The notes under the pieces: generated by a model
The model's input: only the letters and a program-made list of their open reading frames with translations
Database searches by the model: none
What the model was told of the DNA's origin: nothing
Part shown: one piece after another, positions 28,801 to 59,148 of the stretch
Layout of the letters: every line of letters begins with the position of its first letter
Numbering within the stretch: position 1 is the stretch's first letter
Origin: Leptolyngbya sp. NIES-3755
GTDB lineage: Bacteria > Cyanobacteriota > Cyanobacteriia > Leptolyngbyales > Leptolyngbyaceae
Assembly (NCBI GenBank): GCA_001548435.1
Contig: AP017308.1
Location: 2,737,030 to 2,801,029 of the forward strand
Direction: 5' to 3'
DNA length: 64,000 nucleotides
Program-made: the position numbers and the translations under genes

Positions 28801-31800
28801 GAGATCTCTTTCTCAATTTCTCCCGGATTGAATGTTAAAGTCTGCGGTGACGTGATTCCCACATAGTCGTTATCAAGGGTTCTGGCAGATCCATCATCGG
28901 TACGATATTGAACAGTGACCGTGTTCGTCGTGGCTTGTGAGAGTCTGACTTTGAAGGTATAAGTCTGATCTGCACTGCCTTCAGGAGCAACGACATCCTC
29001 GATTTGAATAGTCGGAGTCACAACTCCATCATCATTGACGATCGTGCCTCGAACTTCGGTGTTTGACAGTTTGGCATTGATCGGATCGCTTAAGCGCACC
29101 AAGAAGGCTTCTTCTGGCTCAAAATCCGCGTCCCCATTGACATTCACTGTAATGATCTGTTCTTCGGTTCCAGGTGCGAAAACGAGCGTTCCATTGGTTG
29201 CATCGAAGTCTGATCCCGCGATCGCTAAACCCTCTACAGTCGTGTAATTCACGCGAATTTCCTGACTGCTTGGATTGTTTAGTGACACCACGAATTGGAA
29301 CGCGGTTTTACCTGAATTTCCTTCCGATCGAGTGACGGAACGGATTGATAATTCTGGTTCTGCATCATCATTGGTCAGAACGCCAAACGCATCGGTAGCA
29401 GAGGACGAAATATCTGCATTCAAAGCATCTTCAAGGCGAACAATAAAGCGTTCGGTCGGTTCAAATTTGCGATCGGCATTCACTCGAACGAAGATCGTTT
29501 TTTCCACTTCACCCGGATTAAAGGTTACAGTTCCATTTGCTGCAACGTAATCGTTATCGCTAACCAGTGCAGAATCCGTGAGTGGAGCACCTTCGATCGT
29601 GCGATATTTTACTGTTACCGTTTCGGTTGTCGGATTGGATAACCGGATCGTGAATGGATAGTTTTCAGCAATCGAATCATCTTCGCTCAAAGCTGGACTG
29701 GTAATCGTGAGAGTAGGACGCTGATCATCATTCACAATCGTTCCGGTCGCAGTTCCAGTTCCATCGATCGTACCGTTCACCGCATTCGACAGCGTTAGAT
29801 TGATGGTTTCATCTGGCTCAAGTTTGTTATCACTTGTCGTTTGAATCTCGATCGTCTGGATGAGTTCATTTGGATTGAATGTAACAGTTCGATTTGCGAT
29901 CGCAGTGTAGTCCAAGTCATCGGTCTTAGCTGCTCCGTCACTGGTTGAAACATTGACCGTAATCACTTCATCGCTGACTTCAGACAGTGAAACTGTAAAC
30001 GAAAGGATGCCGCCTTCTCGAACGGTTGCGGGTGAAACGCTGATCACTGGGAAAGCAGAATCATCGGTTTGAATCGTACCAACCCCGATGGCAGTTGTTG
30101 GGATCGTTACGAGCGTCGGAGTCGCTGTGCTTAATTCAACCGAGAATGTTTCTTCTCTTTCGCGTTTTGTGTCCCCTTTTACATTTACGGTAACGATCTG
30201 GCTCGTTGTTCCGGGTGCAAATCGAACAATTCCTGATTCGACTCTTTCATAATCGTTATCTGCGATCGTAGCTGTTCCATCTTTTGTTGAGTAATTCAGA
30301 ACAATTTCTTGATCGCTTGCATTTGACAATGTGACCTCAAACTGAAACACAGTACTGCCGCTGTTTCCTTCTGCTTGAGAGACGTTTGTGATTGAAACTG
30401 TTGGAATTGCATCATTATCGACGATCGTTGCAATTGCACTCTCGGTGGTAATCGTGGCATCAATTGGATTGGTCAATCTGACAGAGAACGATTCATTGCT
30501 TTCACGGATTGCATTGTCAGCGATCGCGATCTGAATGGTTTGACTCGTTTCACCCGGCGCAAAGGTCAGTGTCCCAGTGGTTGCAGTAAAGTCTTCTCCT
30601 GTGAGTGCAGTTCCCGCAATCGTTTCATAATCGACAGTGACAGGGCGACCAGAAGCCTCGGACAATCTGACTGTGAATGTATAAGGTGTTGTATTTTCAG
30701 ACTGTTCGGAAGCTGCTTCGATCGTAAGGGTTGGCGCAGTATCGTTATCTACGATCGTTCCAGTGACTAACTTTTGATCATCGCGCAGAATTGCGCCAGT
30801 TGGATTCGACAATTCGATCTGGAACTGTTCATCCACTTCAAATAAGCGATCGCCTTTTACCGAAACCACGATCGTTTGAGTGGTTTGTCCTGGAGCAAAC
30901 GTTACCTTTCTAGTTGGGGTTGCAGCATAATCAACCTCGATCGTAGAAGTTAAATCACGAATCACATAATCGACTTCAACTTCTGTGCTGCTGACTTCAC
31001 TCAGTGACACGGTGAAAACGTAGTCTTGTGACCCTGTATCGCCTTCATTGATTGAAGTTGCTCCTGAAATCGTCACCGTGGGCACAGTATCATCGTTTGT
31101 GATGGTTGCGATCGCAGTTCCTTGACCGTTTGCAATTCTCGCATTCGCACTCGGATCGCTCAGAACGAAGCTAAAGGTTTCATCTGCTTCAAACTGTGTA
31201 TCGCCTTTGACTCGAACAACCACAGTCTTCGTATCTTCGCCCATCCCAAAGGTGACTTCACCAAACGTTTCAGTAAAGTCATCTGTGCCCGCTGTTCCAG
31301 TTTGAGTTGCATAACGAACCGTTACCGGAGCAGTAAACGGCACAGTATCCAGTTTGATTTGGAAGGTAAATTCTTTTTCGTCAGCATTGCCTTCTGCGCT
31401 GTCTACGGTGGTATTAGAAACCGAAACGAGAATGGGAATGTCGTTATCGATAATTCGGAGTGAAGTCGTTCCAAAGCTTTCTGCAACGGAATAGTCAGGA
31501 GTTGCAACTAGGCTGAGATTGACGACTTCTTCATTTTCGACGATCGTATCGTTAATCGGATTCAGCGTGAGGAAGGCTTCTTCGACTCCATCTGCCAGTT
31601 GGATTGTGAGTTCAGAACCGTTTCGCGTCAAGTTCAGACCTGCGTTGCCTCCCAGCAAGTAATCGAGATCGATCGTTGCAGTACTCGAAGCGTCGATCGC
31701 TAATTTCACCGTCAATTCACCCACCGATCGATTGCGCCAAATTCGATACTGCACTGGACTGGGAGAAGAACTTTCTGCTGTTGCTTGTACTGTATCTGGA

Positions 31801-34800
31801 ACGATCGCAATACTGACAGTTGTTGCTAAATTCAATCCAAAAACATCAGTTGTTCCATTCAAATCACGCGGGACTAAATCCGTTGCGCGACTGTTGAAGA
31901 CAATATAACCTCCATTGCCACTGATTACAGGAGCAAATGAAGCTCCGCGACCACTATTCACATCGTTTACAGTGGAACTCACTAACGAAGTAATATTAGA
32001 AGTCGTATCGCGAACGAATACATCCAGTGCACCATTATTATCGCCGTTCACTAAATCATTAGAGAAGCTACTAAAGACAACAAAACGACCATCATTGCTA
32101 ATTGCTGGAGAAGACGATCCAGATCCAGATCCGCCACCCGTTCCACCATCTGACCCTGGAATTCCAGAACCGCTTCCAGTTCCAGACTGATTCACGCTAA
32201 TCAGTTGAGTTGTGCCTGTTGCCAAATCGCGACGGAATACATCATTTGCACTGTTCGCATCTCCAGCAACGAGATTGTCAAAATCACTTGTAAAGACCAC
32301 ATATTGACCATTCCCGCTGATCACTGGATTGAATGCTCTCAAGCTAAAGCCTGCATTCGGACCCGTCTGTGGTGTTGTGCTATATCCACCCGCTTGATTT
32401 GCACTAACATGAACGGTTGTGTTCGTCTCTAAATTGCGAACAAACACATCTTCATCACTATCAACATCTGGAGTGCCTGCTAGATTCCGAGCCGTACTGG
32501 TGAATGCGATCAATCGTCCATTGCGACTGATGCTGATTTGCGACGAATCCCCATCCGAAATCACGCCACCCGTAGACTGACTCACGAGTGCGATCGCTCC
32601 AGTGGTACGATCCCATACAAATACATCCCGCTGCCCATTCGTATCGCCACTCACCAAGTTCGATCCAGCACTGACAAACGCGACAAATCGCCCATCTTCA
32701 CTCATCACGGGCTGTTCAGAAGTGCCATTACTTCCCGCACTCACAAGCACGATCGAATTATCTGCACTATTCCACAAAAATACGTCTTGCTGAGCATTCG
32801 TGTCACCATTCACCAAATTTGTTGCACTACTGGTAAACGCGACAAATAATCCATCTGCACTAACAACCGGAGTGAGTGAAGCCGCATTTGCACTTCCGCC
32901 CGCGATCGCACGACTGACCAAACGAATTTGCTGTGTTTCGCGATCGACCCAGAAAATATCGATCGCGGTATTGCTATCACCCGCCACTAAGTTCGAGGCA
33001 GCACTGGTAAACACGATGTAGCGACCGTTTGCACTAATGACTGCATTCCCAGAAGCCCCATTCGCAATCTCCGTTCCACGACTAATGAGCGTCGTCGTAT
33101 TGGTTTGTCGATCGCGTAAAAATACATCTGCAACTCCATTCGTATCCCCATTCACGATTTCAGGAGCGGCACTGGTAAACACAATATAGCGCCCATCTTC
33201 ACTAATCGAATTCGCTCCTGCTGTAGAAGTACCACTTCCAGTACGAGAAGCCAGAGTTGGATCATCATTTCGACGACTGAACACTGTAGCGTTTCCAGCC
33301 GCAACCGAAACGGCAAATCCATCAACGAGATCATTCGTGTCGTCTGGTGCGAGATCTTTTGCGAGACTGACAAAGATAGCAGTTGTCCCATCGCTAGTGA
33401 GAACTGGAACAGAAGTCGGAGCGCCAATGCTAGTAGAATTCGTTCCGGAAGTATTATTGCCAACGCTACCGGTTGGAGTACGGCTAATTAAAAAGGTGCT
33501 GCTCGTGGTCAAATCACGCACAAAGACATCTTGTTGAGCATTCGTATCCCCATTGATCAAATTCGTCGCAGTACTGGTAAAGATCACACGGGTTCCATCC
33601 GCGCTCAGACCAACGTTGCCCGAACTCCCATTCGCGATCGCGCCTCCACTACTACGACTAACTAACACCGTTTGATTCGTGGTCAGATTCCGAACAAAGA
33701 CATCGATCGCGTTATTGTCGTCGCCATCGACCAAATCCGTCGAAGAACTCGTAAATGCGATCGCGTTTCCATTCCGACTGATGACCGGACTTTGTGATCC
33801 TCCAGCACTGCCAAATCCATTCGTTGCATTACCAGAGGTCGTTCCCGTCCGATCGACGCTCACCAATTGAATACTGCCCTGTGCCACGCCTACCTGATCA
33901 AATCCAGAGCGCGACCAGACAAACACATTCGCAACTCTGCGACTCGGATCAGTCGAAGTGTCAGGATCGCCCACAAATGCCACGCGACTTCCATCTTGGC
34001 TAATCACCGGACTCGCCGAGGTGGAGAATCGGTCGATCGTCAAGTTCACAACCTGATCATTCGAGGCTTGCCACAAGAACACGTCCTGAGTGCGATTGAT
34101 GTCCCCAAACGCAAGGTTCGTATAAAGGCTCGTAAAGGCAACATAGTTTCCGTCGCCGCTAATTACCGGAGAATCCGCGCCCTGAGTCCGACTGCGTTCA
34201 TCGGTGCGGTTTCGACTGACATGGGTGAGTCCTGTGCCGCGCTCCCAGACATAGACATCTGGAACGGTGCTGGTATCGGTGAATAGGAGTTGGGATTGAG
34301 TTTGAAAGGCAATCCGCTGACCATCATCGCTGATACTCGGTGCGGCAGAGTCTTCGATGCCACTGGTTCCATCTTGGGTGCGACTAACTAAGGTGATTGC
34401 GTTTGTCGATCGCTCCCAGACGAAGATATTGTTCGCTTGCTCAGTCGTGTTCATGTCCGAAACTAAGTCGTTGGCATCGCTAATAAATGCGATCGAGTTG
34501 CCATCAAAGCTAATGACTGGGTTGAATGAATTGCCCGCAGCCGTTCCGGTATCGCCAAAATTGCGGCTAATCAGCGAGATTGTATCGGTTGTGCGATCGT
34601 ACAAGAATACGTCTGATGTGCCGTTCGCGTCATTGGGTGAAAGAATGGCACTACTGGTAAACACTACATATCGCCCATTCCCACTCACTGAGTTGCGTCC
34701 GATGTTGTTGAGTCCGACACTGCCACTCACGAGCGTTGGATTGCCACCCGAAATCAGATCGACGGGCAAAATTCCAGCGTATTGAGTGCGGGTCTCGGCG

Positions 34801-35384
34801 TTGAATGCGATCGCGCTTGCAATCTCTCCTGTATTTGCTTCAAGAATCCAATCTCCGTTAAGTTTGGCATTTCCAGTTAAATCATCCGAGGCTGCGATAT
34901 CCGCGCCAGTCAATTGGCTGAATTGTCGAATAAATGCTTGTCCCGCTTCTCCTTGAGCGACTTCGCAACCGTAGATTAAAATATCGGCTTCATCGGTGAG
35001 CGATTTTGCCCAAAGTTGGAATTCGGATCGATAGCGATCGAGGCTGGCTCGATCGAGCCAAGTGCCACCGAGTTGAATGCCGCCCGATTTCCCATGTGAC
35101 ACGAGATGCAAACTAGAAATGCCGCTCTGTCCCAATAGCGTTTGAGTAATTTGCGCGATCGCATCTTGTACTGGATCAAGGATCAGAACTTGCGAATCCG
35201 GTTGCAGTCCAGCGATCAATTCTTGATAATTCGGAATCGTTGGATCAATCACGATTAGAGACGATCCACGATGGTGAAGGGTCGGAGACTGGGTTAAGTA
35301 ATTCTGTGGAATCGCGATCGTAGATCCACGATCGAGTTCAGTTGAAAGGGGGCGATTCCAATTGGGTAATCCCGCGAATTCCAT
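25827..35384 (-). CDS. Giant DUF4347 / PD40-propeller / Calx-beta / FG-GAP repeat protein
   Basis: 3185 residues from the ATG at 35384 (GGAG 7 bases upstream; a TTG 13 codons earlier is less likely). Four regions follow in order. About 40-200 is a DUF4347 domain (VLILDPVQDAIAQITQTLLG, SSLHLVSHGKSGGIQLGG, DILIYGCEVAQGEAGQAFI). About 205-1190 holds some 16 repeats of the form GRYVVFTS..NLV.GD.N..DVF, i.e. TolB/PD40 propeller blades. About 1195-2585 holds 12 Calx-beta modules ending TI.NDD. About 2590-3185 holds 12 FG-GAP/VCBS-like repeats of the form PDILWRN..G....W. DUF4347 is typical of large secreted or surface adhesins of cyanobacteria. There is no classical signal peptide. It is probably a calcium-binding surface or matrix protein; the target is unknown. 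Confidence 0.93.
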   Translation of the reverse strand: MEFAGLPNWNRPLSTELDRGSTIAIPQNYLTQSPTLHHRGSSLIVIDPTIPNYQELIAGLQPDSQVLILDPVQDAIAQITQTLLGQSGISSLHLVSHGKSGGIQLGGTWLDRASLDRYRSEFQLWAKSLTDEADILIYGCEVAQGEAGQAFIRQFSQLTGADIAASDDLTGNAKLNGDWILEANTGEIASAIAFNAETRTQYAGILPVDLISGGNPTLVSGSVGLNNIGRNSVSGNGRYVVFTSSAILSPNDANGTSDVFLYDRTTDTISLISRNFGDTGTAAGNSFNPVISFDGNSIAFISDANDLVSDMNTTEQANNIFVWERSTNAITLVSRTQDGTSGIEDSAAPSISDDGQRIAFQTQSQLLFTDTSTVPDVYVWERGTGLTHVSRNRTDERSRTQGADSPVISGDGNYVAFTSLYTNLAFGDINRTQDVFLWQASNDQVVNLTIDRFSTSASPVISQDGSRVAFVGDPDTSTDPSRRVANVFVWSRSGFDQVGVAQGSIQLVSVDRTGTTSGNATNGFGSAGGSQSPVISRNGNAIAFTSSSTDLVDGDDNNAIDVFVRNLTTNQTVLVSRSSGGAIANGSSGNVGLSADGTRVIFTSTATNLINGDTNAQQDVFVRDLTTSSTFLISRTPTGSVGNNTSGTNSTSIGAPTSVPVLTSDGTTAIFVSLAKDLAPDDTNDLVDGFAVSVAAGNATVFSRRNDDPTLASRTGSGTSTAGANSISEDGRYIVFTSAAPEIVNGDTNGVADVFLRDRQTNTTTLISRGTEIANGASGNAVISANGRYIVFTSAASNLVAGDSNTAIDIFWVDRETQQIRLVSRAIAGGSANAASLTPVVSADGLFVAFTSSATNLVNGDTNAQQDVFLWNSADNSIVLVSAGSNGTSEQPVMSEDGRFVAFVSAGSNLVSGDTNGQRDVFVWDRTTGAIALVSQSTGGVISDGDSSQISISRNGRLIAFTSTARNLAGTPDVDSDEDVFVRNLETNTTVHVSANQAGGYSTTPQTGPNAGFSLRAFNPVISGNGQYVVFTSDFDNLVAGDANSANDVFRRDLATGTTQLISVNQSGTGSGSGIPGSDGGTGGGSGSGSSSPAISNDGRFVVFSSFSNDLVNGDNNGALDVFVRDTTSNITSLVSSTVNDVNSGRGASFAPVISGNGGYIVFNSRATDLVPRDLNGTTDVFGLNLATTVSIAIVPDTVQATAESSSPSPVQYRIWRNRSVGELTVKLAIDASSTATIDLDYLLGGNAGLNLTRNGSELTIQLADGVEEAFLTLNPINDTIVENEEVVNLSLVATPDYSVAESFGTTSLRIIDNDIPILVSVSNTTVDSAEGNADEKEFTFQIKLDTVPFTAPVTVRYATQTGTAGTDDFTETFGEVTFGMGEDTKTVVVRVKGDTQFEADETFSFVLSDPSANARIANGQGTAIATITNDDTVPTVTISGATSINEGDTGSQDYVFTVSLSEVSSTEVEVDYVIRDLTSTIEVDYAATPTRKVTFAPGQTTQTIVVSVKGDRLFEVDEQFQIELSNPTGAILRDDQKLVTGTIVDNDTAPTLTIEAASEQSENTTPYTFTVRLSEASGRPVTVDYETIAGTALTGEDFTATTGTLTFAPGETSQTIQIAIADNAIRESNESFSVRLTNPIDATITTESAIATIVDNDAIPTVSITNVSQAEGNSGSTVFQFEVTLSNASDQEIVLNYSTKDGTATIADNDYERVESGIVRFAPGTTSQIVTVNVKGDTKREREETFSVELSTATPTLVTIPTTAIGVGTIQTDDSAFPVISVSPATVREGGILSFTVSLSEVSDEVITVNVSTSDGAAKTDDLDYTAIANRTVTFNPNELIQTIEIQTTSDNKLEPDETINLTLSNAVNGTIDGTGTATGTIVNDDQRPTLTITSPALSEDDSIAENYPFTIRLSNPTTETVTVKYRTIEGAPLTDSALVSDNDYVAANGTVTFNPGEVEKTIFVRVNADRKFEPTERFIVRLEDALNADISSSATDAFGVLTNDDAEPELSIRSVTRSEGNSGKTAFQFVVSLNNPSSQEIRVNYTTVEGLAIAGSDFDATNGTLVFAPGTEEQIITVNVNGDADFEPEEAFLVRLSDPINAKLSNTEVRGTIVNDDGVVTPTIQIEDVVAPEGSADQTYTFKVRLSQATTNTVTVQYRTDDGSARTLDNDYVGITSPQTLTFNPGEIEKEISIVVRGDTKFEQNEFFFVDLLNPTNANLSTVSRGRGVISNDDATPTISIGTVAVAEGNDGFVNATFTVSLSNSSDQTIEVNYATDNGTAKVDDEDFEQTSGKLTFLPGITSQTITVRVRGDFKFEPDEFFTVRLSSPVNANLFDAPNQGVGTIQSDDFRPTISISDTSLLPVTEGNSANTPARFTVRLSNPSSETVTVKYVTRNITTNDSDYTAVNTPATLTFAPGQTEQFIELQVIGDTRFEPDETFSIELSDPTNAQIATGRTVATIRNDDPVPQLSISAVPPSKAEGNEGTTPFTFEVSLSDASFVPITVSYTTIDGTATTANKDYLQATNTLTFAPGETKKTITIDVLGDTEFEGDETFQIRLNTPNNATIQTALAIATIVGDDTPDNTDDSDSLYDILWRNRRTGENLLWMPSGTFLDREIPLPSVRDPLWRIVGTADFDNDGALDVFWRNAQTGENQIWRTNPDLTFAEIDLPTVSGDWEVAGIGDFNGDRSPDLFWRNSLNGGNVVWLLRGTTPFFGVETAQVAQPGWRIKSIADFDNDGKSDLFWSNQNNGATAIWLMDGTSPRFGRLLNQVADVMWQPVSAGDVNRDGFADLIWRHGRSGENVVWFMKDGWVTGSITLPVVPDANWKIEQVFDFNADQNLDILWRQTVSQETVIWFLNGEQVGTAALLPSLPDRNWQIEGTGKFGNPSKGEILLRNYQTGENRLWRIHRDLFNRTVEMESQSIDWEIQGTADFDQNGSADVLWRNLRTRELSIWLTDRGAVLSKVTVPAGVIVTNDWKIVGVADFSADGSPDILWRNQNSGGLSMWLFNGTQVVSGFELPSTDSGWRIEGVTDLNGDRNPDLLWRHSLSGELAFWFFDRTQVRLGVLGPVVPTNWQIKDFGDFNRDGRMDLVWRNDGSNETVLWMMDGSRIVDGVVLPSALPSWDIAGVGDFNLDNQIDLIWRDRTNGTNAVWYLNNGRFALSNFIPAIRDIDWQVKDINDF

Positions 35385-35559
35385 AAGTTTCTCCAGTGGG
35401 GGCGAGGGTTCTAGTTTGCTCAATCGGTAGATTGCCCAAGTCGGGTGCTAGAACATTCACACGCGAAAACAAAGCAGTGAATTTACGCATTTTTCTCACT
35501 AGAAAATTTACGGATCGACAAAATATCGGATAATGTCTTCCAACGTATGAGATCACAGA

Positions 35560-50127: not shown

Positions 50128-51282
50128 TCAGTATCCGTGATCGTCGCTGATTTTGTCCTGAGTCTTTTTTGGCTTCGATCGTGGAGATTGTTTCGGCAAC
50201 GGAGATGGACTAACTTGAACTGGTGCAGGTTGAACCGAGGATGGCACGATCGTAGGTGGAACCGTATTCGTCATCGATCGCTGTTGTAAAAAGACAAAAT
50301 AGCCAATTCCAGCAATCAAAATTGGGATTGGCATGACCCAAAACCACGATCGCGTTCTCGGTTGAGTTGCGCTAGTTCTAACGGGTTCTATCACAGTTGA
50401 AACAGGCAAATTCTCCTGTACCGAAGAGCTTACGGAATTTACTTCCTCTAAGTACATAATGCCGAGTGTGACATCATCACCGCTTCCCCGTCGTGAAGTT
50501 TCTTGGAGAATGATCGGTAAGTTTGCAATCACTCGATCGAATCCCTCTCGTCGTATCTTCTTTAAATAATCTGCACCAATTTGCTGAAAGTCCTCATCGG
50601 TTGCATAAGAGTTCGCATATCCATCTGTTGAGGCAAGTATCATCGCAGGTAAAGCAGTACTAGAAGCAATCTTAAGTCGTGATTCTTGCCAAACTTGCGG
50701 GGTACAGAGTGAAATCGTTCGATTCGCTACCAGTCGCGGATCAGGCGGTAAAGGATGCTGAATCTTACCATCCGGTTGAACACAGAGAATATCCCCATCA
50801 CCAATCTGGAAATAGATAGTAAATTTATTGGTGATCACCACCATCACTAAAGTTGCACCATACGCGATCGAGGGATCTTGTTCAATCTGCGATCGCGAAA
50901 CGTCTCCCTGCCAAAGTCCTTGCACCTGAAGCTCTTCCCATTCTGCCTCAGTAATGGGATGCTGTTCAACATGAGTGATCACACTCCTTCGCCATTGTTC
51001 TACGATTTGCTGAGGTAGCTGTTTTATCGATCGAGAACTCGCTTGATTCAGAACCGTTTCTTTAACAGTATTTACAGCAACTTGAACGGCATGGTTCGCT
51101 CCAATATGACTGCGAAAATAACTCTGTCCTCCATGTCCATCCGAAATCACCATGATTAAAGCTTGCTGCTGTCCGATCTCCAGCGTTTCACAATGAATCG
51201 CATCTTGATTCACCAATCCAGTTCTTTGATGCGATGCTCCTTGGATCGATCGACCATCGCAGCGCCAGGATAAATAATTCAT
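50128..51282 (-). CDS. PP2C-type protein phosphatase with C-terminal membrane anchor
   Basis: 384 residues from the ATG at 51282; a TTG five codons earlier would overlap the kinase gene. PP2C signature residues are complete: NQDAIHC (D27), MVISDGHGGQSYF (D48-G-H), FQIGDGDILCV, LASTDGYANSYA and RRGSGDDVTLGIMYL. These Asp bind two metals and a phosphate-attacking water. A membrane helix (about 325-340, FWVMPIPILIAGIGYFVFLQ) and a Pro-rich basic tail follow. It would dephosphorylate Ser/Thr targets of the kinases encoded upstream. It is the last gene of the seven-gene minus-strand operon; 8 bases separate it from the kinase-VWA gene. Confidence 0.93.
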   Translation of the reverse strand: MNYLSWRCDGRSIQGASHQRTGLVNQDAIHCETLEIGQQQALIMVISDGHGGQSYFRSHIGANHAVQVAVNTVKETVLNQASSRSIKQLPQQIVEQWRRSVITHVEQHPITEAEWEELQVQGLWQGDVSRSQIEQDPSIAYGATLVMVVITNKFTIYFQIGDGDILCVQPDGKIQHPLPPDPRLVANRTISLCTPQVWQESRLKIASSTALPAMILASTDGYANSYATDEDFQQIGADYLKKIRREGFDRVIANLPIILQETSRRGSGDDVTLGIMYLEEVNSVSSSVQENLPVSTVIEPVRTSATQPRTRSWFWVMPIPILIAGIGYFVFLQQRSMTNTVPPTIVPSSVQPAPVQVSPSPLPKQSPRSKPKKTQDKISDDHGY

Positions 51283-51290
51283 GACTGTTA

Positions 51291-52868
51291 TTACCAACGA
51301 TCGTCATAGGTTCCACTCAACACCGGAGACGGAGTAGATAACGGAATTGGAAGACTATTCAGCGACCCATCTTTTGCAAAGCTCGCAGGTGCAGAAGCCG
51401 CTTTGAGTACCGCAGTCGAAGCCCATTTAATCTGTCGTACCAATGCTTCGGGATTATTCGCTCGAAGCGGTTTCAAGTTGGAATGACCAATAAATTGCTG
51501 AAGCACCTCATAATCCGCATCTCGACCAATTGCGATCGCGACTCGAATCGCTTTGCGTCCCCAAAATTGCTCAAATAAAGCATTCAATCCTTCAATATAT
51601 TGATCGGTTGGATGTCCATCTGAGATTAGAACTAACACAGGGGGAAGCGCACGAGTGTTCATCGGCGGTGATTTTAATTGTTCTGCAACTTGAAATAAAG
51701 CAGCCGCTAAATCGGTATCTCCATCGGCGGTCAGCGGATTCCAGCGAAAAGATTCGATCGGGGTTGGCTCTGGAATCACCCACTTTGCACCCGTTGAAAA
51801 TCGAATTGCCCGGAGTAGAACTTGAGCATTCGGATTATCTCCAGCAGCGGCTTTCATGTGTGGAATCACTTCCTCGATCGCAGTATTCAACGCTTGAATT
51901 TTGCCATCAATCTCCATCGAGCTAGAACAATCACAAATCCAGATAAAGTGCAGCGGTCGTGTTGCCATTTCTCCACCCGGAAGATCAGGCATCGAGGTAA
52001 ACACATCAGGCACGATCGGGAATTGAGCATTGACAGATAGATTCGTCGCTGGAACTTTGATCGCTTGCAGGGCATAGAGAACTTCATCTGCCGATTGATA
52101 ACGTTCTTCAGGCAGAAAAGCCAGCATCCGTGAGAGAATCTGAGCAAAAGTATCTGTCACCGTAATGCACGATCGCCAAGCTGCACTCCCATTCTTCGGA
52201 GCTAATAAATGATTCGGTTGTCGTCCGCTGAGAAGGACGATCGCACAAATCGCTAACGCATACAGATCACTACTCGGCAAACATCTTCCTTCGCTCAATT
52301 GCTCAAACGGTGAATATCCAGGCTTTCCGACAAATGATGACGGAGGTTGATTCAGATTAAGCTGAGTTCCAACTCCAAAATCGATCAACACAGGCATCCC
52401 GTTGGAAAGCATCATATTGTCGATCGAAATATCCCGATGCAAAATTCCTTGATCATGCACGGTGCTGAGAACAGGAAGTAATGCTTTGAACAATTGAACG
52501 ACTTCTGCTTCAGAAAAGACTTGATTGTGATCTAATCGCTGATAAAGCAATTTTGCATAAGTTTCACCTTCGATAAATTGCTGCACCAAGAACAATCGCT
52601 CATCCTCTTCAAAGAATGCAGAAAATTCGGGAATCTGAGGGTGCTTGATTTGATGAAGAATTTTAGCTTCTCGATTAAACAGTTCTCGTGCTTTAGGCAG
52701 ACTTTGTTCACTAATGCCGACTGGCGCGAATTCTTTAAGCACACAGCGCTCTTCAAAGCGTTCCTGATCAAATGCGAGATAGGTTCGTCCTAATCCACCT
52801 TGTCCAAGAACATCGTGGATTCGATAGCGTTTGTGAATGATCGTGTTAGGAGAAATTTCTGGTTTCAT
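51291..52868 (-). CDS. Ser/Thr protein kinase fused to a VWA domain
   Basis: 525 residues. The kinase domain covers about 12-270: GQGGLG at 22-27, Lys45 in CVLKEF, HRD at 144-146 in ILHRDISIDNMML and DFG at 163-165. So it should be active. A VWA domain follows (about 300-480): the MIDAS metal site is IWICDCSSSMEI (D313, S315, S317) with a late Asp in VLVLISDGHPTDQY. VWA domains bind proteins via a metal ion. The tail (about 480-525) is Pro/Ser-rich and unstructured. In the TerY-P triad, vWA, kinase and PP2C are separate genes, while here two are one chain and PP2C is next. It is fifth downstream of the FHA genes in the operon. Confidence 0.95.
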   Translation of the reverse strand: MKPEISPNTIIHKRYRIHDVLGQGGLGRTYLAFDQERFEERCVLKEFAPVGISEQSLPKARELFNREAKILHQIKHPQIPEFSAFFEEDERLFLVQQFIEGETYAKLLYQRLDHNQVFSEAEVVQLFKALLPVLSTVHDQGILHRDISIDNMMLSNGMPVLIDFGVGTQLNLNQPPSSFVGKPGYSPFEQLSEGRCLPSSDLYALAICAIVLLSGRQPNHLLAPKNGSAAWRSCITVTDTFAQILSRMLAFLPEERYQSADEVLYALQAIKVPATNLSVNAQFPIVPDVFTSMPDLPGGEMATRPLHFIWICDCSSSMEIDGKIQALNTAIEEVIPHMKAAAGDNPNAQVLLRAIRFSTGAKWVIPEPTPIESFRWNPLTADGDTDLAAALFQVAEQLKSPPMNTRALPPVLVLISDGHPTDQYIEGLNALFEQFWGRKAIRVAIAIGRDADYEVLQQFIGHSNLKPLRANNPEALVRQIKWASTAVLKAASAPASFAKDGSLNSLPIPLSTPSPVLSGTYDDRW

Positions 52869-52980
52869 GCGTGTGATACCGATGAGAAAATGATGCGATT
52901 TACCCGTTGCCGTAGAGACGCTGAGTATAAATTACGACTCTAACTGGATTGAGCAGTGGACTGTCTCGCAGAAATCAAAT

Positions 52981-54660
52981 CTACTGTGCAGGGAGCGGTT
53001 TAATCTGATTCGTTGCCGTAATTCGGAGTTCTCCTTGTTCATTCGGAGTTACCCCTGTCACTGCTAATCGCTTCACCTTACTCACATCAGGCACTCCTGC
53101 ATCCGCTAAAATCTGCTTTGGAACAATCACTCGATGTACCTTGCCACCATCAACTTGAAGCGTAAGATAGTCCGTATTCTCATCTGCAAATCCAAATCCG
53201 TTCACTCGACCTGTAATCGCATTCGAGCAGCTAAATTGAATCCGATCGCCCGATTTCCACTTAGTCGGATCAGTACAAGCAAGAAACTGATCGACTCGCT
53301 CGGCAATCTTCACCAGTTCAGCATAGTCTCCTGATGCTCCTTCTCGATATCGTGCGGCTCTGCGCGTTTCTTCAGGAGCTTCGAGCAAGGCTTTCCGCAG
53401 CGTTTCTTGATCCGCTTGGCTAATCTTCGGTGAGAAATACACCCCTGCGGTTGGAATCGATCGACTGGCACTAATCAGTCTCAATCCACTCCGTAACCGT
53501 TGCCGAATGGTTCTAAATCGCTCTGGCAAGTCTCTAGAAGGTTCTTCTGTAATCCATTCAGCAGGCAATACACCGACATCCGCTCGACCTTCTAACACAC
53601 TGTTACCCGCAGCAACCGGAGTCGAATTGTTCGGCTCAACGCGCAAGGTTCGACCATAAGAATCGAAGACGGGAACATAGAAGAAAGGACTATCTGGATT
53701 ACCGAGCGCGATCGTATAGTCAGGATTGCGATTGAGGTCTTCCAGCGACTTGATCGGACTATCGTTTCGCGTCACGAGTGCAATGTGAAAGCTTTCATTG
53801 TTCGAGGGTTGCATTCGGGCTGCAAACGCATAGTTATTTTGAATTGCAGCGGCAGAAAGCAGCGGATTTGCCGTGAAAGCCAGATCCCATTCTTGGTTTT
53901 TCAGCTTCGATCGGACTTGATCAAATGCTTCTCTTCCAGTTGCATCAATAAACTCAACATTCACTTCAATGTTCCGATTAAAGCGCTTCGGCAATTCCGC
54001 TTTCAAATAGTCCGCAAATTTCTGATAGCCATCTTTGGGATTAAATGCGGGTTGATTCGGCTGACCTCCATTTTGATTCGGAATTACTGGAATATAAACG
54101 CCCACAGTTAAACGGGTAAGGGGTGCTAGTGTTTGTTCAGTTGGAGTGCCGCCACCGCCCACAGTGCTCAAAGAGGTTGAGAACAGTCGCGAACCTGTCA
54201 ATCCAATTCCAGCGATCGCGCCCAATGCTAACAGTCCCATTGCCAATCGTCGCTTAGGATTGTTCTTATTATTGGACAAAACTGCATCGACTTTCGTGCG
54301 TGGTTCTCTTGAAGGCTTACTTTTCGCAATTCCTAATGCTACTGCCCAAGATTCAACTGCCCATCGTGCCACATCCGGTTGCAATCCAAGGTGCTCGACT
54401 AAGCGTGAGGACAATCGCTCGATTTGAACTTCAGGCGCGATCGACACTTGGGAAGAAAGCAATTCCTCTGGAACGTGTTCATTCAGTGCGGTGGTTAAGG
54501 CTCTACGCTCTAATTGATAGTGCGCTAGTCGATCGTTGAGATAGCCTCGCCATTGTTGAGGATTATCTGCAACATTACTCCCCAGTTCTTCGACTAGCTT
54601 TCTTAGAATATCTCTGGCTGCACTATTCATAGTTTGGCTTCGCATCGTTTGGTTCCTCAT
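52981..54660 (-). CDS. Transmembrane protein with helical adaptor and PhnD-like ligand-binding domain
   Basis: 559 residues. About 12-115 is a helical cytoplasmic region (ARDILRKLVEELGSNVADNP and ERRALTTALNEHVPEELLSS), a unit I recall from kinase-associated proteins. A membrane helix lies at about 139-158 (LAMGLLALGAIAGIGLTGS). Outside the membrane, about 183-460 is a PhnD-type periplasmic binding fold: LTVGVYIPVIPNQNG, KFADYLKAELPKRFN, WDLAFTANPLLSAAAI and RADVGVLPAEWITEEPSRDL. PhnD proteins bind phosphonate or phosphate esters. A C-terminal beta region follows (about 465-559, SGDRIQFSCSNAITGRVNGF). It may act as the receptor of the operon, with ligand unknown. It has three ATGs near the start. 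Confidence 0.8.
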   Translation of the reverse strand: MRNQTMRSQTMNSAARDILRKLVEELGSNVADNPQQWRGYLNDRLAHYQLERRALTTALNEHVPEELLSSQVSIAPEVQIERLSSRLVEHLGLQPDVARWAVESWAVALGIAKSKPSREPRTKVDAVLSNNKNNPKRRLAMGLLALGAIAGIGLTGSRLFSTSLSTVGGGGTPTEQTLAPLTRLTVGVYIPVIPNQNGGQPNQPAFNPKDGYQKFADYLKAELPKRFNRNIEVNVEFIDATGREAFDQVRSKLKNQEWDLAFTANPLLSAAAIQNNYAFAARMQPSNNESFHIALVTRNDSPIKSLEDLNRNPDYTIALGNPDSPFFYVPVFDSYGRTLRVEPNNSTPVAAGNSVLEGRADVGVLPAEWITEEPSRDLPERFRTIRQRLRSGLRLISASRSIPTAGVYFSPKISQADQETLRKALLEAPEETRRAARYREGASGDYAELVKIAERVDQFLACTDPTKWKSGDRIQFSCSNAITGRVNGFGFADENTDYLTLQVDGGKVHRVIVPKQILADAGVPDVSKVKRLAVTGVTPNEQGELRITATNQIKPLPAQ

Positions 54661-54670
54661 TCAATGGTGT

Positions 54671-56002
54671 TTACAGTCGAATTTCTCCCAGCGTGTTACC
54701 GAAGTGAATCTTCATGCCAGATTCGAGCGGCAACATCTGGAGCGGTTGGATATCTTGCATTGTTCCGATCACTTTCCAGGGTTGATCAGATAGATTTTGC
54801 AGAATCAGTTGATCGCGATCGAAGCGGGGAATAATTCGCGCCGCAGGTTGAGAAAAATCGTAGGCACAATTGCGATCGAGATGATGCGGATACAACAGCG
54901 TATCAATGTTCAACATCACTGTCAGTCCTGAATCTAATCGCATTCTGGGCGGTGCTTGTAAAGGTTGATCGCAACGCCAGCAGGACTTTACAGTATCGAT
55001 CGTGGTTCTAAAAGTCTGAAGATCATAAAAATTCTCAGCTTCGCACTGCGGACAGTGAAAGATCGAATCTCGCAATTTCACCATTTCCGATCGCCACACA
55101 CTTTCCAGTACTCGTCCTTGTTTCGGATTGTGCAGTCCATCGGTAAAAGACTGTACAAATAGCGTTTTCAAGAACTGTGGATAGATCGACCAAAATGCGA
55201 TCGCGTTCGCGCCTGCTTCGATTGGATGTGAGTTTGACAAGGCAGCATTCGATGGATTGTGCGGATCAAAGATAAATACGGGATCAGTTCCACACAGCCG
55301 CATTCGAGCAGGCAAATCCAAGCAAGGAATATCTAATACCTTTTTGCCGTAAAGCGGATGGTGATTGTGAAGTAAACAGAAGAGTAATACTGCCAGCGAA
55401 TATCGATCGGTTTGCTTACTCGGTAATGCTTCTCGGCGAACCACTTCTGGAGCCATAAAGTCCGGTGTTCCAAGGACTCCACCGCTGGTCGAACCATCGA
55501 TCGTGACATTGTCGTTATCGCCGATCAGAACATGACCCGATTGAGGATGGAAGTAAACGTTATTCAGCGAAATATCGCGATAACACAATCCCCGGAGATG
55601 TAATTGTAAAAAGCTATTTGCTAACTCTAACCCGATCGTCGATAACACTCGAAAGCTCAGTTTCACTTTCCGCTTCACTAAATCCACGGTGCTGAGGTAT
55701 CCTGCCTCTCGAAGTTGCATCACATAACCAAATCCCGAAGTCTCTGGAGAAGTGACGATCGCAAAGGGCCAAAGAAACTGATCGGTTGGAGCATCTAAAT
55801 GCACAAGTTCAGTTAAACGCTCCAACAATCCAGCATCTTCATGAATGTAGTAAGAATGAAACCATTTCAGCGCGACTGCTCGATCGCTTAATCGTGCTCG
55901 GTAGACTTCGCCCTGAGTTCCACTGCCGAGAAGTTCTTCAACCTGACAGGGTAGACCCATTGTGGTTTGGATGCACTGTTGCGGTGATAAAAGCTGGCTC
56001 AT
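54671..56002 (-). CDS. Divergent protein kinase with zinc ribbon and C-terminal beta domain
   Basis: 443 residues from the ATG at 56002 (GAGGG upstream; a GTG 7 codons earlier is possible). The kinase fold is seen in LGSGTQGEVYRAR (Gly-loop), VALKWFH (Lys46), LCYRDISLNNV and VLIGDNDNVTIDG. So the catalytic HRD is YRD and DFG is DND; both key Asp are kept. APE is present in FMAPEVVRRE. About 315-350 has two Cys pairs, C317/C320 in FHCPQC and C341/C344 in SCWRC, a zinc ribbon. The rest (about 365-443) is a beta-rich, FHA- or SHS2-like region. Such YegI-like kinases form the TerY-P triad with VWA and PP2C in E. coli. Confidence 0.85.
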   Translation of the reverse strand: MSQLLSPQQCIQTTMGLPCQVEELLGSGTQGEVYRARLSDRAVALKWFHSYYIHEDAGLLERLTELVHLDAPTDQFLWPFAIVTSPETSGFGYVMQLREAGYLSTVDLVKRKVKLSFRVLSTIGLELANSFLQLHLRGLCYRDISLNNVYFHPQSGHVLIGDNDNVTIDGSTSGGVLGTPDFMAPEVVRREALPSKQTDRYSLAVLLFCLLHNHHPLYGKKVLDIPCLDLPARMRLCGTDPVFIFDPHNPSNAALSNSHPIEAGANAIAFWSIYPQFLKTLFVQSFTDGLHNPKQGRVLESVWRSEMVKLRDSIFHCPQCEAENFYDLQTFRTTIDTVKSCWRCDQPLQAPPRMRLDSGLTVMLNIDTLLYPHHLDRNCAYDFSQPAARIIPRFDRDQLILQNLSDQPWKVIGTMQDIQPLQMLPLESGMKIHFGNTLGEIRL

Positions 56003-56112
56003 TGTTCCCTCGTCCAAGCTCACAGTCTAATTCTGGATCGAATCCGATCTGTGGGGATTGCACTTTTATGTAGTTCTCAGTGCGGGAAACAGAAGCAATT
56101 ACACTGAAACAA

Positions 56113-56556
56113 CTACACTGACCAGCGACCGATCCATTCTCCACCCCGAAACCGCCAACGTGGAAACAACAGCCGCATTACCACCCAAGAGGAGAGATAG
56201 TCTGCAATCCAAACCAAACTATAGTGCAAGGCAAATAAATCAAGATGTGCCGCAGCAAGTTCTGTTCCAGGCAGTCCGACCCAGCGTATCGCTCCAGCGA
56301 GAAACAATCCTTCTACGATCGCGGCTCCCAACTGAAACAGTCCGGGCCAATCATGATCCCACATGAACTGCTGCAACTGATGATAAAGCACATCCCAGCA
56401 CAGTCCAAACGCCCAAACATAGAGCAAAACCCAGTAGTATACTGTGCCTGGTGCATGACCGATGATTCCTGTAGAAAATAGAAAGCTAACAAAAAGTCCG
56501 ATCGTGGCAAGCAAAAATGTCCGCGTTTGCCACCGTCCAATCAATGTAGGTGTCAT
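56113..56556 (-). CDS. Small four-helix membrane protein of the signalling operon
   Basis: 147 residues with about four membrane helices (near 14-32, 40-60, 72-92, 112-132). It has conserved-looking blocks TPTLIGRWQTRTFLLATIGL and YYWVLLYVWAFGLCWDVLYH, and several aromatic His/Trp residues (QFMWDHDWPGLFQLGAA). No named family is recognised. It lies between the FHA-oxidoreductase (20 bases) and the YegI-like kinase (110 bases), so it is likely co-transcribed and may be a membrane partner or anchor for the cluster; this is inference. Confidence 0.72.
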   Translation of the reverse strand: MTPTLIGRWQTRTFLLATIGLFVSFLFSTGIIGHAPGTVYYWVLLYVWAFGLCWDVLYHQLQQFMWDHDWPGLFQLGAAIVEGLFLAGAIRWVGLPGTELAAAHLDLFALHYSLVWIADYLSSWVVMRLLFPRWRFRGGEWIGRWSV

Positions 56557-56576
56557 CGTAGTTCTCCTCTAAATAA

Positions 56577-58607
56577 CTAAGGCGCTTGGTTTGTTGCCCA
56601 CTTGATCCATTGAAACAGCGATCGTAGTCCTTCGATATACCGAACATTCGGTGCTCGGAATCGCGCTAAGCTTTCAACGGCTCGATGTGCGGCGTACTGT
56701 AAGCCCAAGAAGGTATCAACAGGTGCATAAGGTCCACCCAATGTGATGATGCCTGCTGCATACATTCGAGCGCGATCGTTCCGCATTTTCTTAATCTCAA
56801 AGCTGTTCTCAACGTGCAATCGCCCTTGAGGATTGAGATCAAGTTTGTAGTGGCTGATCATATCACCAAGCAGTGGATTATCTTTCGGGTCTGAAATCAA
56901 CCCTGTACAGTCAATTACAAAGTCAGCTTCAATCTTGTCAAACCCTGGATAGTCTCGATTTTTTACATAAGTGATCGGCTTGCCATCCGGACTGCGTTCG
57001 ACTTTTTCCACTTGCCCAAACTTGAGGACATACCAACCTTCTTGAATGCCTTGTTTGACAATTTTCCGCCAGCGCGATCGACTTGCCGTGGTCGTTCCGC
57101 CCCAAGCTTCTAAGAGTTCTCTCCGTTTGAGTGGATCAGCCGATTCTAAGCGCGATCGCATATCGCCACCCCAAGTTGCTTTGGGCCAATTAAACGGCTG
57201 AAACTCCCACTGATTCTCAACATACCGTTTAGCTACTCCAAATCGATTCCCCTTCTTCGGAGTGCGGCTGAGATGCACGATCGTAATTTTCGGATTCTGC
57301 TTCCGAGCTTCATAAACGCGATCGAGAATTTGTGATCCAACAATCCCAAATCCGCGGACAAGCAATGTTCCACCATGCTTTTCTAAATGCTCAAAAATAT
57401 GATCATGCGGTTCATAGCCTTGAACTACAGATTTTAAGTCGCCTGTTGTTTCCCGATACTGTTGCAAGTCAGGCAGTAACTTTAATGCTGGATAACCCGT
57501 TGCTAGATGAATATATCGAGCAATCAAGAATCGATAGTTTGGTGCACCTGGAGGACGAGTTGCAGAATAAGCAATCACATAGCGTCCATCTTCTGTTTTC
57601 CGAATGCTCCGAACACTCGCATAGCGCCACATCCGATCCCAACTAATTCGAGTGGCTTCACGATCCATCGAATCAAACACATCTCTCGCTCTTGGTGTGT
57701 AAGTATCTGCGATCGGCTCTGAAAAGACTTGCCATAAGAATCCGAAGGCTGATCCAATCTGTCCCGTACTCACCGATCGACAAGCATCTCTCAAGGCATA
57801 ACCCGGAAAGCCCCAAATGTTATCAGGACAAGAATCTGACCCAGATCGAATCCGTTTATATCTTGGAATTTGACAGTTTCTTAACAGTGTTTCATATCGC
57901 TTATAAGGCTTTTCTTGAATGCTTAAGACTGCAATCTGTTCAGACTTTACCCCTGAAATTCTGAGGGTATCGGCAAACACAAAGCTACCCATTCCGCCCC
58001 CGATCGTGACGTATTCGATTTCATCGATCGGATATCCAGAAGCGTGAAGTGCTGACACCGAGACTAATTCACCTGCAAACAACGACGCAGGCGGAAATGA
58101 TTGACGTGCAGGAGTTGGAATCTTGATCTGAGTCTGAATCGCATCCGTTTCTGGATTAAAAATAATCGTCGAAGGTCGAGGTGCAGCATCTTGAGGAACG
58201 GTTCCCACCTGAGAGAGCGGAGTCACGATCGTCGGTAATTTCGTTTCAACGATCGTATTCTCTTGTGCCGCAGGTTCCAGCACCATCACCGTAATATCGT
58301 AGGCTCCAATCCGTAAAACATCTCCGCTATTGATCGGGCGTTGTTGACCTTGAAATTTCTCGCCATTTAACAAGCAACCATTCGCGCTCCGGTCTTCTAC
58401 GATCAATTGGTTCTGCTCAACCGTAATCCAAGCATGAAACCGAGAAATCTTACGATTTGCATCCAGTAGCATCAATTGAGAAACCGTTTGACCTTGATCA
58501 GTTTTGGGTAACTGGTCTAGCTCTCGACCAATCGCGATCGGGGTTTCAAATTGATATTGCTGTTGTTCTTCAGTGATGGGATCATCCCAAGAAAGTTGAA
58601 TCTGCAT
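56577..58607 (-). CDS. FHA domain fused to FAD/NAD(P)-dependent oxidoreductase
   Basis: 676 residues. About 20-110 is an FHA phosphothreonine-binding domain: AIGREL (R28), NRKISRFHAWI (S55, H58), SANGCLLNG. A linker of about 80 residues leads to a Rossmann fold at about 195-230, EIEYVTIGGGMGSFVFADTL with GGGMG at 203-207 for FAD. YIHLATGYPALKLL and a second dinucleotide motif LLVRGFGIVGSQILD (G419, G421, G424), followed by HLSRTPKK, bind NAD(P). FVIDCTGLISDPKDNPLLGD is the typical late FAD motif. It resembles lysine-hydroxylase-like flavoproteins. Only 4 bases separate it from the upstream FHA gene, implying coupled translation. Substrate unknown. Confidence 0.88.
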   Translation of the reverse strand: MQIQLSWDDPITEEQQQYQFETPIAIGRELDQLPKTDQGQTVSQLMLLDANRKISRFHAWITVEQNQLIVEDRSANGCLLNGEKFQGQQRPINSGDVLRIGAYDITVMVLEPAAQENTIVETKLPTIVTPLSQVGTVPQDAAPRPSTIIFNPETDAIQTQIKIPTPARQSFPPASLFAGELVSVSALHASGYPIDEIEYVTIGGGMGSFVFADTLRISGVKSEQIAVLSIQEKPYKRYETLLRNCQIPRYKRIRSGSDSCPDNIWGFPGYALRDACRSVSTGQIGSAFGFLWQVFSEPIADTYTPRARDVFDSMDREATRISWDRMWRYASVRSIRKTEDGRYVIAYSATRPPGAPNYRFLIARYIHLATGYPALKLLPDLQQYRETTGDLKSVVQGYEPHDHIFEHLEKHGGTLLVRGFGIVGSQILDRVYEARKQNPKITIVHLSRTPKKGNRFGVAKRYVENQWEFQPFNWPKATWGGDMRSRLESADPLKRRELLEAWGGTTTASRSRWRKIVKQGIQEGWYVLKFGQVEKVERSPDGKPITYVKNRDYPGFDKIEADFVIDCTGLISDPKDNPLLGDMISHYKLDLNPQGRLHVENSFEIKKMRNDRARMYAAGIITLGGPYAPVDTFLGLQYAAHRAVESLARFRAPNVRYIEGLRSLFQWIKWATNQAP

Positions 58608-58611
58608 ACAC

Positions 58612-59148
58612 CTAAAGTTGAGGAATGATGTTTTCAGAAATCATCGTTGCGCCGAGGACTTGATAGCCACAGTGACAAGTCAGCAGCGAATAGTCTGCGG
58701 GAAGAATATGTGCACCTTTGGGATTGGTACATTTACACACAAAACGATTAGCTCTGACAGGTTCGGGCTGATGCGCTGGCTTTGAGTCTATTTCGAGTGC
58801 TTTAATTCGCACTGTCATTTTTCCGAGTTTAATATTGCTGTTTTCTGCGATCGCAATTTCTTGTTCTACGATTCTCTGCCCATCGACAAAGACAGGATTC
58901 GGCGGAGTGCGATCACGTGTTAAATTCCGAACATACAATCGCTGCTTAGATTCATTCCAAAAGAGTTCAATATGCAAACCCGAAACGGTTCTTTCAATAT
59001 TGCGATCGGGATGTTGCAAGACGATATCACAGCGGTCTCGATCGCGTCCAATCCGAATCGTTCCAGACTGTTTTGTTTGATCTTGGGATGATACGTTTTG
59101 TGAACAGTTGCGGGTGTTTTCCTGCCATTCCAGAGTAAGGCGGTACAT
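58612..59148 (-). CDS. FHA-domain protein with C-terminal CxC/CxC zinc motif
   Basis: 178 residues. The FHA domain is at about 28-115: IRIGRDRDRCDIVL (G34, R35), TVSGLHIELFWN (S56, H59), LYVRNLTRDRTPPN and PVFVDGQRI, the last being the usual N-G equivalent. A short C-terminal zinc module follows, with C138 and C140 (FVCKCTN) and C158 and C160 (TCHCGYQ). FHA domains bind phosphothreonine, so this protein is a likely reader of the kinases encoded downstream. It is the first gene of the minus-strand operon, so the promoter should lie in 59149-59379. Confidence 0.9.
   Translation of the reverse strand: MYRLTLEWQENTRNCSQNVSSQDQTKQSGTIRIGRDRDRCDIVLQHPDRNIERTVSGLHIELFWNESKQRLYVRNLTRDRTPPNPVFVDGQRIVEQEIAIAENSNIKLGKMTVRIKALEIDSKPAHQPEPVRANRFVCKCTNPKGAHILPADYSLLTCHCGYQVLGATMISENIIPQL

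Follow-up and report, generated by a model that had tools for sequence, protein, structure and literature searches.

An FHA-linked flavoprotein unit and a TerY-P phosphosignalling cassette as adjacent modules in the cyanobacterium Leptolyngbya sp. NIES-3755

Do seven consecutive genes of Leptolyngbya sp. NIES-3755, most of them with domains for setting or reading Ser/Thr phosphorylation, form one signalling pathway or several units placed side by side? They occupy positions 50128-59148, minus strand, of the window, i.e. the whole stretch of 64,000 nucleotides that was analysed (contig AP017308.1, positions 2,737,030 to 2,801,029), and an original prediction had described them as one seven-gene operon leading from a ligand to a redox enzyme. 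The analysis shows that the block consists of two adjacent modules that evolve separately, module A (FHA1, an FHA-flavoprotein and the small membrane protein memP) and module B (the kinase kin2, a substrate-binding protein or SBP, a kinase-VWA fusion and a PP2C phosphatase), and that the two came to adjoin each other in a small number of relatives of one cyanobacterium. Relatives are referred to by G numbers (genomes) and L numbers (loci), and excerpts of the literature by PubMed Central (PMC) numbers.

Seven genes in two adjacent modules

All seven open reading frames (ORFs) were recovered where the original prediction had placed them, and a Pfam scan considering matches up to E 0.1 confirmed the claimed domains (FHA twice, Pkinase twice, VWA, Phosphonate-bd and PP2C_2). 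The VWA domain has no stand-alone gene in the window, being fused to the second kinase (gene 6). The features are as follows (aa, amino acids; TM, transmembrane; MIDAS, metal ion-dependent adhesion site):

58612-59148, minus: FHA1, 178 aa, Pfam FHA 2.8e-09 (module A)
about 58669-58737, minus: C-terminal CxC...CxC putative zinc ribbon of FHA1, CxC at residues 138 and 158
56577-58607, minus: FHA-flavoprotein, 676 aa, Pfam FHA 4.4e-10 (module A)
about 58278-58547, minus: N-terminal FHA domain of the flavoprotein, Pfam match at residues 47-101
about 56580-58130, minus: C-terminal predicted FAD/NAD(P)-binding domain of the flavoprotein, from the predicted fold
56113-56556, minus: memP, small four-helix membrane protein, 147 aa, from predicted model and conserved columns (module A)
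54671-56023, minus: kin2, Ser/Thr kinase, 450 aa, Pfam Pkinase 2e-17 (module B)
about 54971-55054, minus: C-terminal zinc ribbon CxxC..CxxC of kin2, CxxC at 324 and 348, with a further C-terminal domain after the ribbon
52981-54660, minus: SBP, 559 aa, Pfam Phosphonate-bd 8.1e-21 (module B)
about 54325-54630, minus: N-terminal adaptor domain of SBP, residues 11 to about 112, from alignment
about 54190-54246, minus: single predicted TM helix of SBP, hydropathy segment 139-157
about 53368-54039, minus: PhnD-like substrate-binding domain of SBP, Pfam Phosphonate-bd
51291-52868, minus: kinase-VWA fusion, 525 aa, Pfam Pkinase 2.7e-33 and VWA 3.1e-05 (module B)
about 52095-52826, minus: kinase domain of the fusion, Pfam Pkinase
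about 51321-51959, minus: TerY-type VWA domain of the fusion with MIDAS, Pfam VWA and motifs
50128-51297, minus: PP2C phosphatase, 389 aa, Pfam PP2C_2 9.3e-39 and Asp motifs (module B)
about 50281-50349, minus: predicted C-terminal TM segment of PP2C, from hydropathy

With the longest starts the intergenic gaps measure 4, 20, 89, 10, 112 and -7 bases; hence the predicted spacings of 4, 20, 10 and 112 bases stand, and those of 110 and 8, which result from later Met starts, become 89 and -7. A pattern scan gave no minus-strand terminator in any gap of the block and one within the SBP gene, with terminator and promoter pattern counts in the block below those of shuffled controls. The block, with a G+C of 0.454 to 0.473 against 0.454 to 0.455 in the flanks, is not distinct in base composition. 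The seven genes are real, intact and under purifying selection: their orthologues in G163, of the same genus, display 74 to 93% identity over aligned residues and ratios of nonsynonymous to synonymous substitution (dN/dS) of 0.05 to 0.18. Since these orthologues also keep order and strand, the block is more than a chance assembly.

Gene order was compared over two sets of neighbourhoods, the first made up of 28 loci that encode a complete FHA-flavoprotein (27 from cyanobacterial genomes, one being the paralogue in the window's genome) and the second of 80 named loci out of 402 relatives, together with genomes of the same family. The order is retained elsewhere, G163 (which lies outside both sets) keeping all seven genes and G166, also of the genus, keeping them as far as its contig end, which comes after SBP. 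Among the two sets, only LEGE 13415 (L108, the G166 contig) has kin2 and an SBP orthologue behind memP. In G167, a further member of the genus, the LD-carboxypeptidase and glycosyltransferase genes that also lie upstream in the window (83 and 81% identity) lead straight into kin2, SBP, kinase-VWA and PP2C (62, 47, 64 and 57% identity); module A is missing there, and the whole G167 genome contains no FHA-flavoprotein match. The S9 peptidase gene of the window's other flank was not found in the 20-kb stretch of G167; with only one flank in common, gain and loss of module A there fit equally. On the evidence of G167 and of the other genomes' neighbourhoods, a single conserved seven-gene operon is thus rejected, and with it the one conserved pathway first proposed.

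Module A: flavoprotein, membrane partner and FHA1

The three-gene FHA unit is widespread in cyanobacteria, where it normally lives without module B. Its flavin domain is present in 28 of 146 genomes of the phylum (37 have any match, the remaining 9 being FHA-type matches only) and memP occurs in the identical set, spanning 21 genera and 10 families (Fisher 1.2e-30, a statistic that ignores shared ancestry); presence and absence of the pair both occur within at least five families and at least two genera. Copy numbers agree as well, with two flavin domains and two memP in the window's genome and equal counts throughout 42 genomes of the family (2, 1, 2, 2; others 0), which brings the comparison to 186 genomes in all (146 and 42, two in both). 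As the presence and copy number of memP follow the flavin domain, it belongs with the flavoprotein, and a role as receptor part is rejected.

The pairing does not depend on strict adjacency. In 13 of 27 loci (14 when counting L057, found by tblastn) memP follows downstream on the same strand at a distance of no more than 450 bp, and in another 11 it lies at most 6 kb away, on either side or strand; in G068 and G125 it is outside the 20-kb region around the flavoprotein, yet elsewhere in the genome. In the actinomycete Nonomuraea gerenzanensis a flavin gene without FHA (37% identity) and a memP homologue (40%) overlap, the stop codon of the former with the start codon of the latter. This overlap and the co-occurrence argue for an obligate two-protein unit which, since the actinomycete pair carries no FHA, would predate the FHA fusion, the direction of change being our inference.

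Concerning the nature of the flavin domain, no Pfam family scores above its curated cut-off, no monooxygenase matches up to E 0.1, and a PDB sequence search up to E 1 yields matches in the FHA region only. The original reading as a flavoprotein is nevertheless borne out by the predicted fold. An AlphaFold model built from 42 sequences reaches a predicted local distance difference test score (pLDDT) of 80, and Foldseek places it closest to the hydroxylase SidA (E 2.5e-16), with PvdA at a template modelling score of 0.72 by target length. VIA-align ranks the disulfide reductase YpdA first by Z (23.0, root mean square deviation or rmsd 3.2, 312 residues aligned), followed by the hydroxylase PvdA (21.8, rmsd 3.7, 375 aligned), and the fold relatives of the model include further disulfide reductases and NADP oxidoreductases; N-hydroxylases align over 375-395 residues vs about 280-330 for the reductases. 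The model thus has the N-hydroxylase fold with FAD and NADPH Rossmann domains, which other flavin families fit about equally. The motifs GGGxGS, GxGxxxS and ATGY are present, the last of which we take to be meaningful for N-hydroxylases. On account of the aligned length and the ATGY motif we prefer a hydroxylase to a disulfide reductase, which is a possible but less likely reading; the Cys of SDSCPDN is not kept in Nonomuraea. As judged from the model, the protein is likely a two-dinucleotide-domain enzyme of the class B or N-hydroxylating flavin fold, a monooxygenase or an oxidase.

memP has no Pfam match up to E 0.1. Its 38 sequences share an invariant MTPxLxGxWQxR start, FxxxRxxGG near the end, a near-invariant His (H111) and invariant Trp, Asp and Glu residues, and the predicted model (pLDDT 85) consists of four long helices. 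Compared with the PDB this fold gave no accepted match: the single Foldseek match has E 9.7, and a designed protein proposed as relative by VIA-align (Z 6.1) was too weak and counted as none. No description of an FHA-flavoprotein-membrane module was recognised in the open-licence PMC literature.

FHA1 precedes the FHA-flavoprotein within 900 bp in 22 of 27 relatives and 67 of the 80 named loci. The flavoprotein's own FHA domain keeps the GR, SxxH and NG motifs, and its profile finds the GarA/OdhI group as best solved relatives, a general FHA similarity. Between FHA and flavin domain, a linker motif I.FNP.T is found in 74 of 99 sequences (107 examined, 8 without anchor) and is missing in the paralogue of the window's genome; it is a possible phospho-switch. 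In relatives of family f7 (e.g. L044:7821-8486 and L044:14513-15235) FHA1 is preceded by an endonuclease V family gene (15 loci), and a gene of the GDSL lipase family is located close to the flavoprotein (10 loci), both assigned by Pfam on one member each.

Module B: TerY-P triad, candidate receptor and adaptor

A TerY-P triad is defined, in the excerpted PMC11090510, by a TerY-like VWA protein, a PP2C and a kinase with C-terminal zinc ribbon. The block had been read as containing such a triad, and the comparison upholds this. The kinase-VWA protein carries the MIDAS residues (D313CSSS, T385DL, S416DG), with intact HRD, DFG and DxSxS motifs, and its VWA part is 49, 56 and 35% identical to stand-alone triad VWAs of G141, Methylomonas and Prevotella, respectively. 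The PP2C gene, with its Asp motifs, is adjacent. kin2, with its ribbon, aligns nearly full length with a zinc-ribbon triad kinase, that of Prevotella (31% identity, residues 12-445, the alignment running through the ribbon); against the triad of the Methylomonas plasmid, kin2, VWA and PP2C show 44, 56 and 34% identity. Bare kinase-VWA-PP2C triads in the same order occur in G141 and on the Methylomonas and Prevotella plasmids, while a P. putida plasmid has the order VWA-PP2C-kinase. To this triad, module B adds the SBP gene and a kinase domain ahead of the VWA. A listing of 2005 already includes kinases with VWA domains and others with solute-binding domains (PMC1262709, excerpt). Each element of module B therefore has precedent and the combination is new here; no TerY-P triad with a substrate-binding receptor was recognised as described in the open-licence PMC literature.

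That the PhnD-like protein acts as a receptor, as originally suggested, gains support from four genomes (G145, G123, G111 and G131) in which the domain is joined through a predicted TM helix to a Ser/Thr kinase in one chain (cyanobacterial receptor kinases at L099:5214-8060, L100:5546-7870, L102:5535-7970, L103:6764-9592). In G118 and G131 its gene adjoins a kinase gene. Of the seven further genomes that give the best SBP matches, five have the domain linked to a kinase and two (G078, G068) to a NERD protein. Given the kinase fusions elsewhere, SBP and kinase-VWA look like a split receptor kinase inserted into a TerY-P triad. At L101:7369-9261 and L098:3989-7140 a PhnD-like domain is fused to, or stands beside, a protein with the NERD nuclease-related domain.

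The N-terminal adaptor of SBP, which has no Pfam match up to E 0.1, recurs with 39 to 42% identity in five consecutive genes, all bearing one very similar adaptor, behind the triad of the Methylomonas sp. AM2-LC plasmid CP157007.1 (L256:7004-14433, an unannotated record). There it is fused, with the partner at its C or N terminus, to Sel1 repeats, a Tim44-like domain, Clp_N, a ClpX zinc finger and an unassigned part; in G131 it precedes an HSP70 domain. It was found in at least 6 of 386 genomes of the phylum, a lower bound as 12 first-look candidates per genome were scored. Away from triads, one place has another kinase gene and one scanned protein carries an FGE-sulfatase domain. As distant members of the phylum carry the adaptor without a triad nearby, the link between the two is not universal; it rests on the window's genus, G179 (kin2 only) and Methylomonas. 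The pattern suggests that the adaptor may dock partners onto the TerY-P triad.

Some further observations were made at these loci. In a distant member of the phylum, the gene of an adaptor-containing FGE-sulfatase-type protein overlaps that of a DCC1-like thiol oxidoreductase (L266:8464-10096), and similar pairs of adaptor protein and small gene occur at L267 and L268. The 579-aa protein encoded behind kin2 and SBP in G179 shows, by eye, a hydrophobic stretch in its C-terminal half.

Proposed coupling and comparison with known systems

How, then, could the two modules belong together? The account we work with is a membrane-anchored TerY-P phospho-switch (module B) coupled in this genus to an FHA-read flavoenzyme (module A), which we rate a little below an even chance. 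The PhnD-like domain outside the membrane would bind a small anionic ligand, and the signal would pass through the single TM helix to the N-terminal adaptor and the partner kinase, here fused to VWA. We know of no ligand for any TerY-P triad. The two kinases and the membrane-anchored PP2C would determine how far Thr residues close to the membrane are phosphorylated; FHA1 and the flavoprotein FHA would bind phosphothreonine, and this binding would place or gate a class B-type NAD(P)H-dependent flavin oxidase or monooxygenase at memP, its obligate four-helix partner. In most cyanobacteria other Ser/Thr kinases would serve module A, the coupling to module B having arisen in this genus. By analogy with the GlnH-PknG-GarA system discussed below, such a ligand-to-redox pathway is plausible in this lineage. 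Weak support comes from the second module A copy of the window's genome (L032, C1:3789000-3808999), where memP, FHA-flavoprotein and FHA1 lie beside an Na/H exchanger gene and a different, divergent cluster encoding PP2C, kinase-RDD, RDD, kinase-FHA, a zinc-ribbon VWA, an FHA-PrsW protease and a kinase.

Several observations weigh against this coupling. Module B of G167 stands without module A beside the same upstream genes, and across the 28 and 80 loci module A normally has no module B nearby. The memP-kin2 gap varies (89 bases in the window, 210 in G163, 75 in G166), so that module B may have its own promoter. In G179 kin2 and SBP are followed, in the place of kinase-VWA, by the unrelated 579-aa protein (L199:4943-6682), which has no Pfam match, and the 13.5-kb contig contains no VWA or PP2C match. 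Concerning motifs, kin2 has YRD and DND where HRD and DFG are expected, and FHA1 has GR and SxxH with NG missing; an upstream FHA1 is clearly missing from 5 of the 27 loci and from 10 of the 80 (another 3 of the 80 being undecidable). Five of the seven places with an adaptor belong to the distant family f25, with no kin2, VWA or PP2C match nearby. Finally, the enrichment of kinase genes around module A is weak (8 of 28 loci vs 3 of 37 random regions, one-sided p 0.033), with p 0.057 when the paralogue of the window's genome is left out and 0.086 after dropping related loci. Kinase-type matches occur in 19 of the 80 named stretches, which are of unequal length and have no control set. Two relatives (L110:14653-19258 and L112:15290-19078) have a weak PhnD-type gene (28% identity) flanked by memP and a Ser/Thr kinase gene, at most 7 kb downstream; we take these genes as ordinary neighbours rather than as module B.

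The two modules could also be coincidental neighbours, module B being a TerY-P unit with a function of its own, e.g. antiphage defence, and module A an unrelated flavoenzyme set upstream, which we judge possible without thinking it probable. The occurrence of B without A in G167, and of A without B in the other cyanobacterial loci examined, fits this explanation, as does the memP-kin2 gap, which exceeds every other gap of the block in G163 but neither in the window (112 bases before kinase-VWA) nor in G166 (169 before memP); the conservation of gene order and strand across species of the genus speaks against it. Defence is the strongest rival for module B, given that TerY-P protects P. aeruginosa PAO1 from some phages (PMC10889362) and is associated with restriction systems (PMC11090510), according to excerpts of both papers. 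The kinase of kinase-VWA matches PADLOC PD-T4-6 models (up to 1.1e-72), but these match Ser/Thr kinases generally, kin2 among them. The adjacent glycosyltransferase matches Pfam GT4-conflict at 3.3e-09, weaker than Glycos_transf_1 at 1.5e-27; of the eight flanking genes scanned one, for a Uma2-type protein, matches PADLOC, and no clear defence gene is seen among them. A membrane receptor with a ligand-binding domain is moreover, to our knowledge, unusual in defence systems.

Two other explanations concern single components. Flavoprotein and memP might be a transmembrane redox pair, with electrons passing from NAD(P)H to FAD and on to a quinone or haem in memP, instead of a hydroxylase unit. 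We consider this unlikely: it would account for the strict co-occurrence, for H111 and the invariant Trp, Asp and Glu of memP, and for the reductases among the fold relatives with YpdA first by Z, but the longest alignments are those with N-hydroxylases, the window flavoprotein has the ATGY motif, and memP offers a single nearly invariant His. Far less probable still is an orphan role of SBP in scavenging phosphonate or phosphite for uptake, as its Pfam family could suggest: it has an adaptor and a TM anchor in place of a signal peptide, the nearest relatives beyond its orthologues are joined to kinases or NERD proteins or lie next to them, and neither the block nor the scanned flanking genes encode an ABC permease or ATPase.

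Returning to the coupled phospho-switch, the block is a new combination of known parts, and the flavin domain with memP was not found described in the literature searched. We tentatively propose, in a claim that is doubtful as a whole, that module A is an undescribed phospho-gated membrane flavoenzyme, i.e. an obligate class B-type flavoprotein with a new four-helix membrane family, older than its FHA domains, which would have been put under Ser/Thr kinase control in cyanobacteria and coupled in this genus to a ligand-sensing TerY-P receptor cassette whose adaptor recruits variable partners. The excerpted PMC6069109 treats as unsettled which stimuli bacterial Ser/Thr kinases respond to, and in module B a TerY-P triad comes with a visible receptor and with a candidate adaptor. 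Module A in turn offers a defined output, an enzyme open to testing together with a membrane protein family without assigned fold or function, and its strict pairing over 186 genomes is a strong prediction that can be tested cheaply.

Elsewhere in the window, a 3198-aa ORF (25827-35423, minus) with DUF4347, ten Calx-beta stretches and FG-GAP repeats perhaps encodes a giant surface protein.

Among known systems, the TerY-P triad is represented here by all three components, in the kinase-VWA-PP2C order of G141, Methylomonas and Prevotella, but in the window the VWA forms one protein with a second kinase, and a PhnD-like receptor with a TM anchor separates this fusion from kin2. From a PhnD-type transport binding protein SBP differs in the absence of partner ABC permease or ATPase genes in the block and scanned flanks. 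The N-hydroxylases SidA, PvdA and KtzI share the predicted fold over about 380 residues (Z 18.6-21.8) and the ATGY motif with the flavoprotein, which differs in its low identity (11-14% in the structural alignment), its lack of Pfam membership, the fused FHA and the co-occurring membrane partner. The FAD domain of zeaxanthin epoxidase belongs to class A, and Pfam contains models of effector-associated domains. Plant and algal zeaxanthin epoxidase, in the excerpt of PMC12570779, likewise unites a flavin monooxygenase and an FHA domain on one chain, with the role of the FHA open there too; the FHA is C-terminal there and N-terminal here (residues 47-101), and no such FAD domain was matched in the window's protein. 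The adaptor resembles the effector-associated domains of conflict systems (PMC7159879, excerpt), likened by layout, in being a small domain repeated in neighbouring genes beside one core system, as in Methylomonas, and differs in having no Pfam match and in sitting on a receptor here.

The closest worked-out analogue of the proposed pathway is the actinobacterial GlnH-GlnX-PknG-GarA/OdhI system (PMC6069109, PMC9769921), in which, as far as the excerpted PMC6069109 describes it, a substrate-binding protein signals to PknG and on to the FHA protein GarA. PknG carries a TPR domain (PMC6069109), and the Pfam matches of both window kinases, up to E 0.1, include none of this type. Here SBP and TM helix are in one protein, PP2C and VWA are part of the cassette, and the FHA domain is fused to a flavoenzyme. 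Compared by layout, not by family or descent, both systems would combine an extracytoplasmic substrate-binding protein, a TM relay, a Ser/Thr kinase and an FHA protein acting on metabolism.

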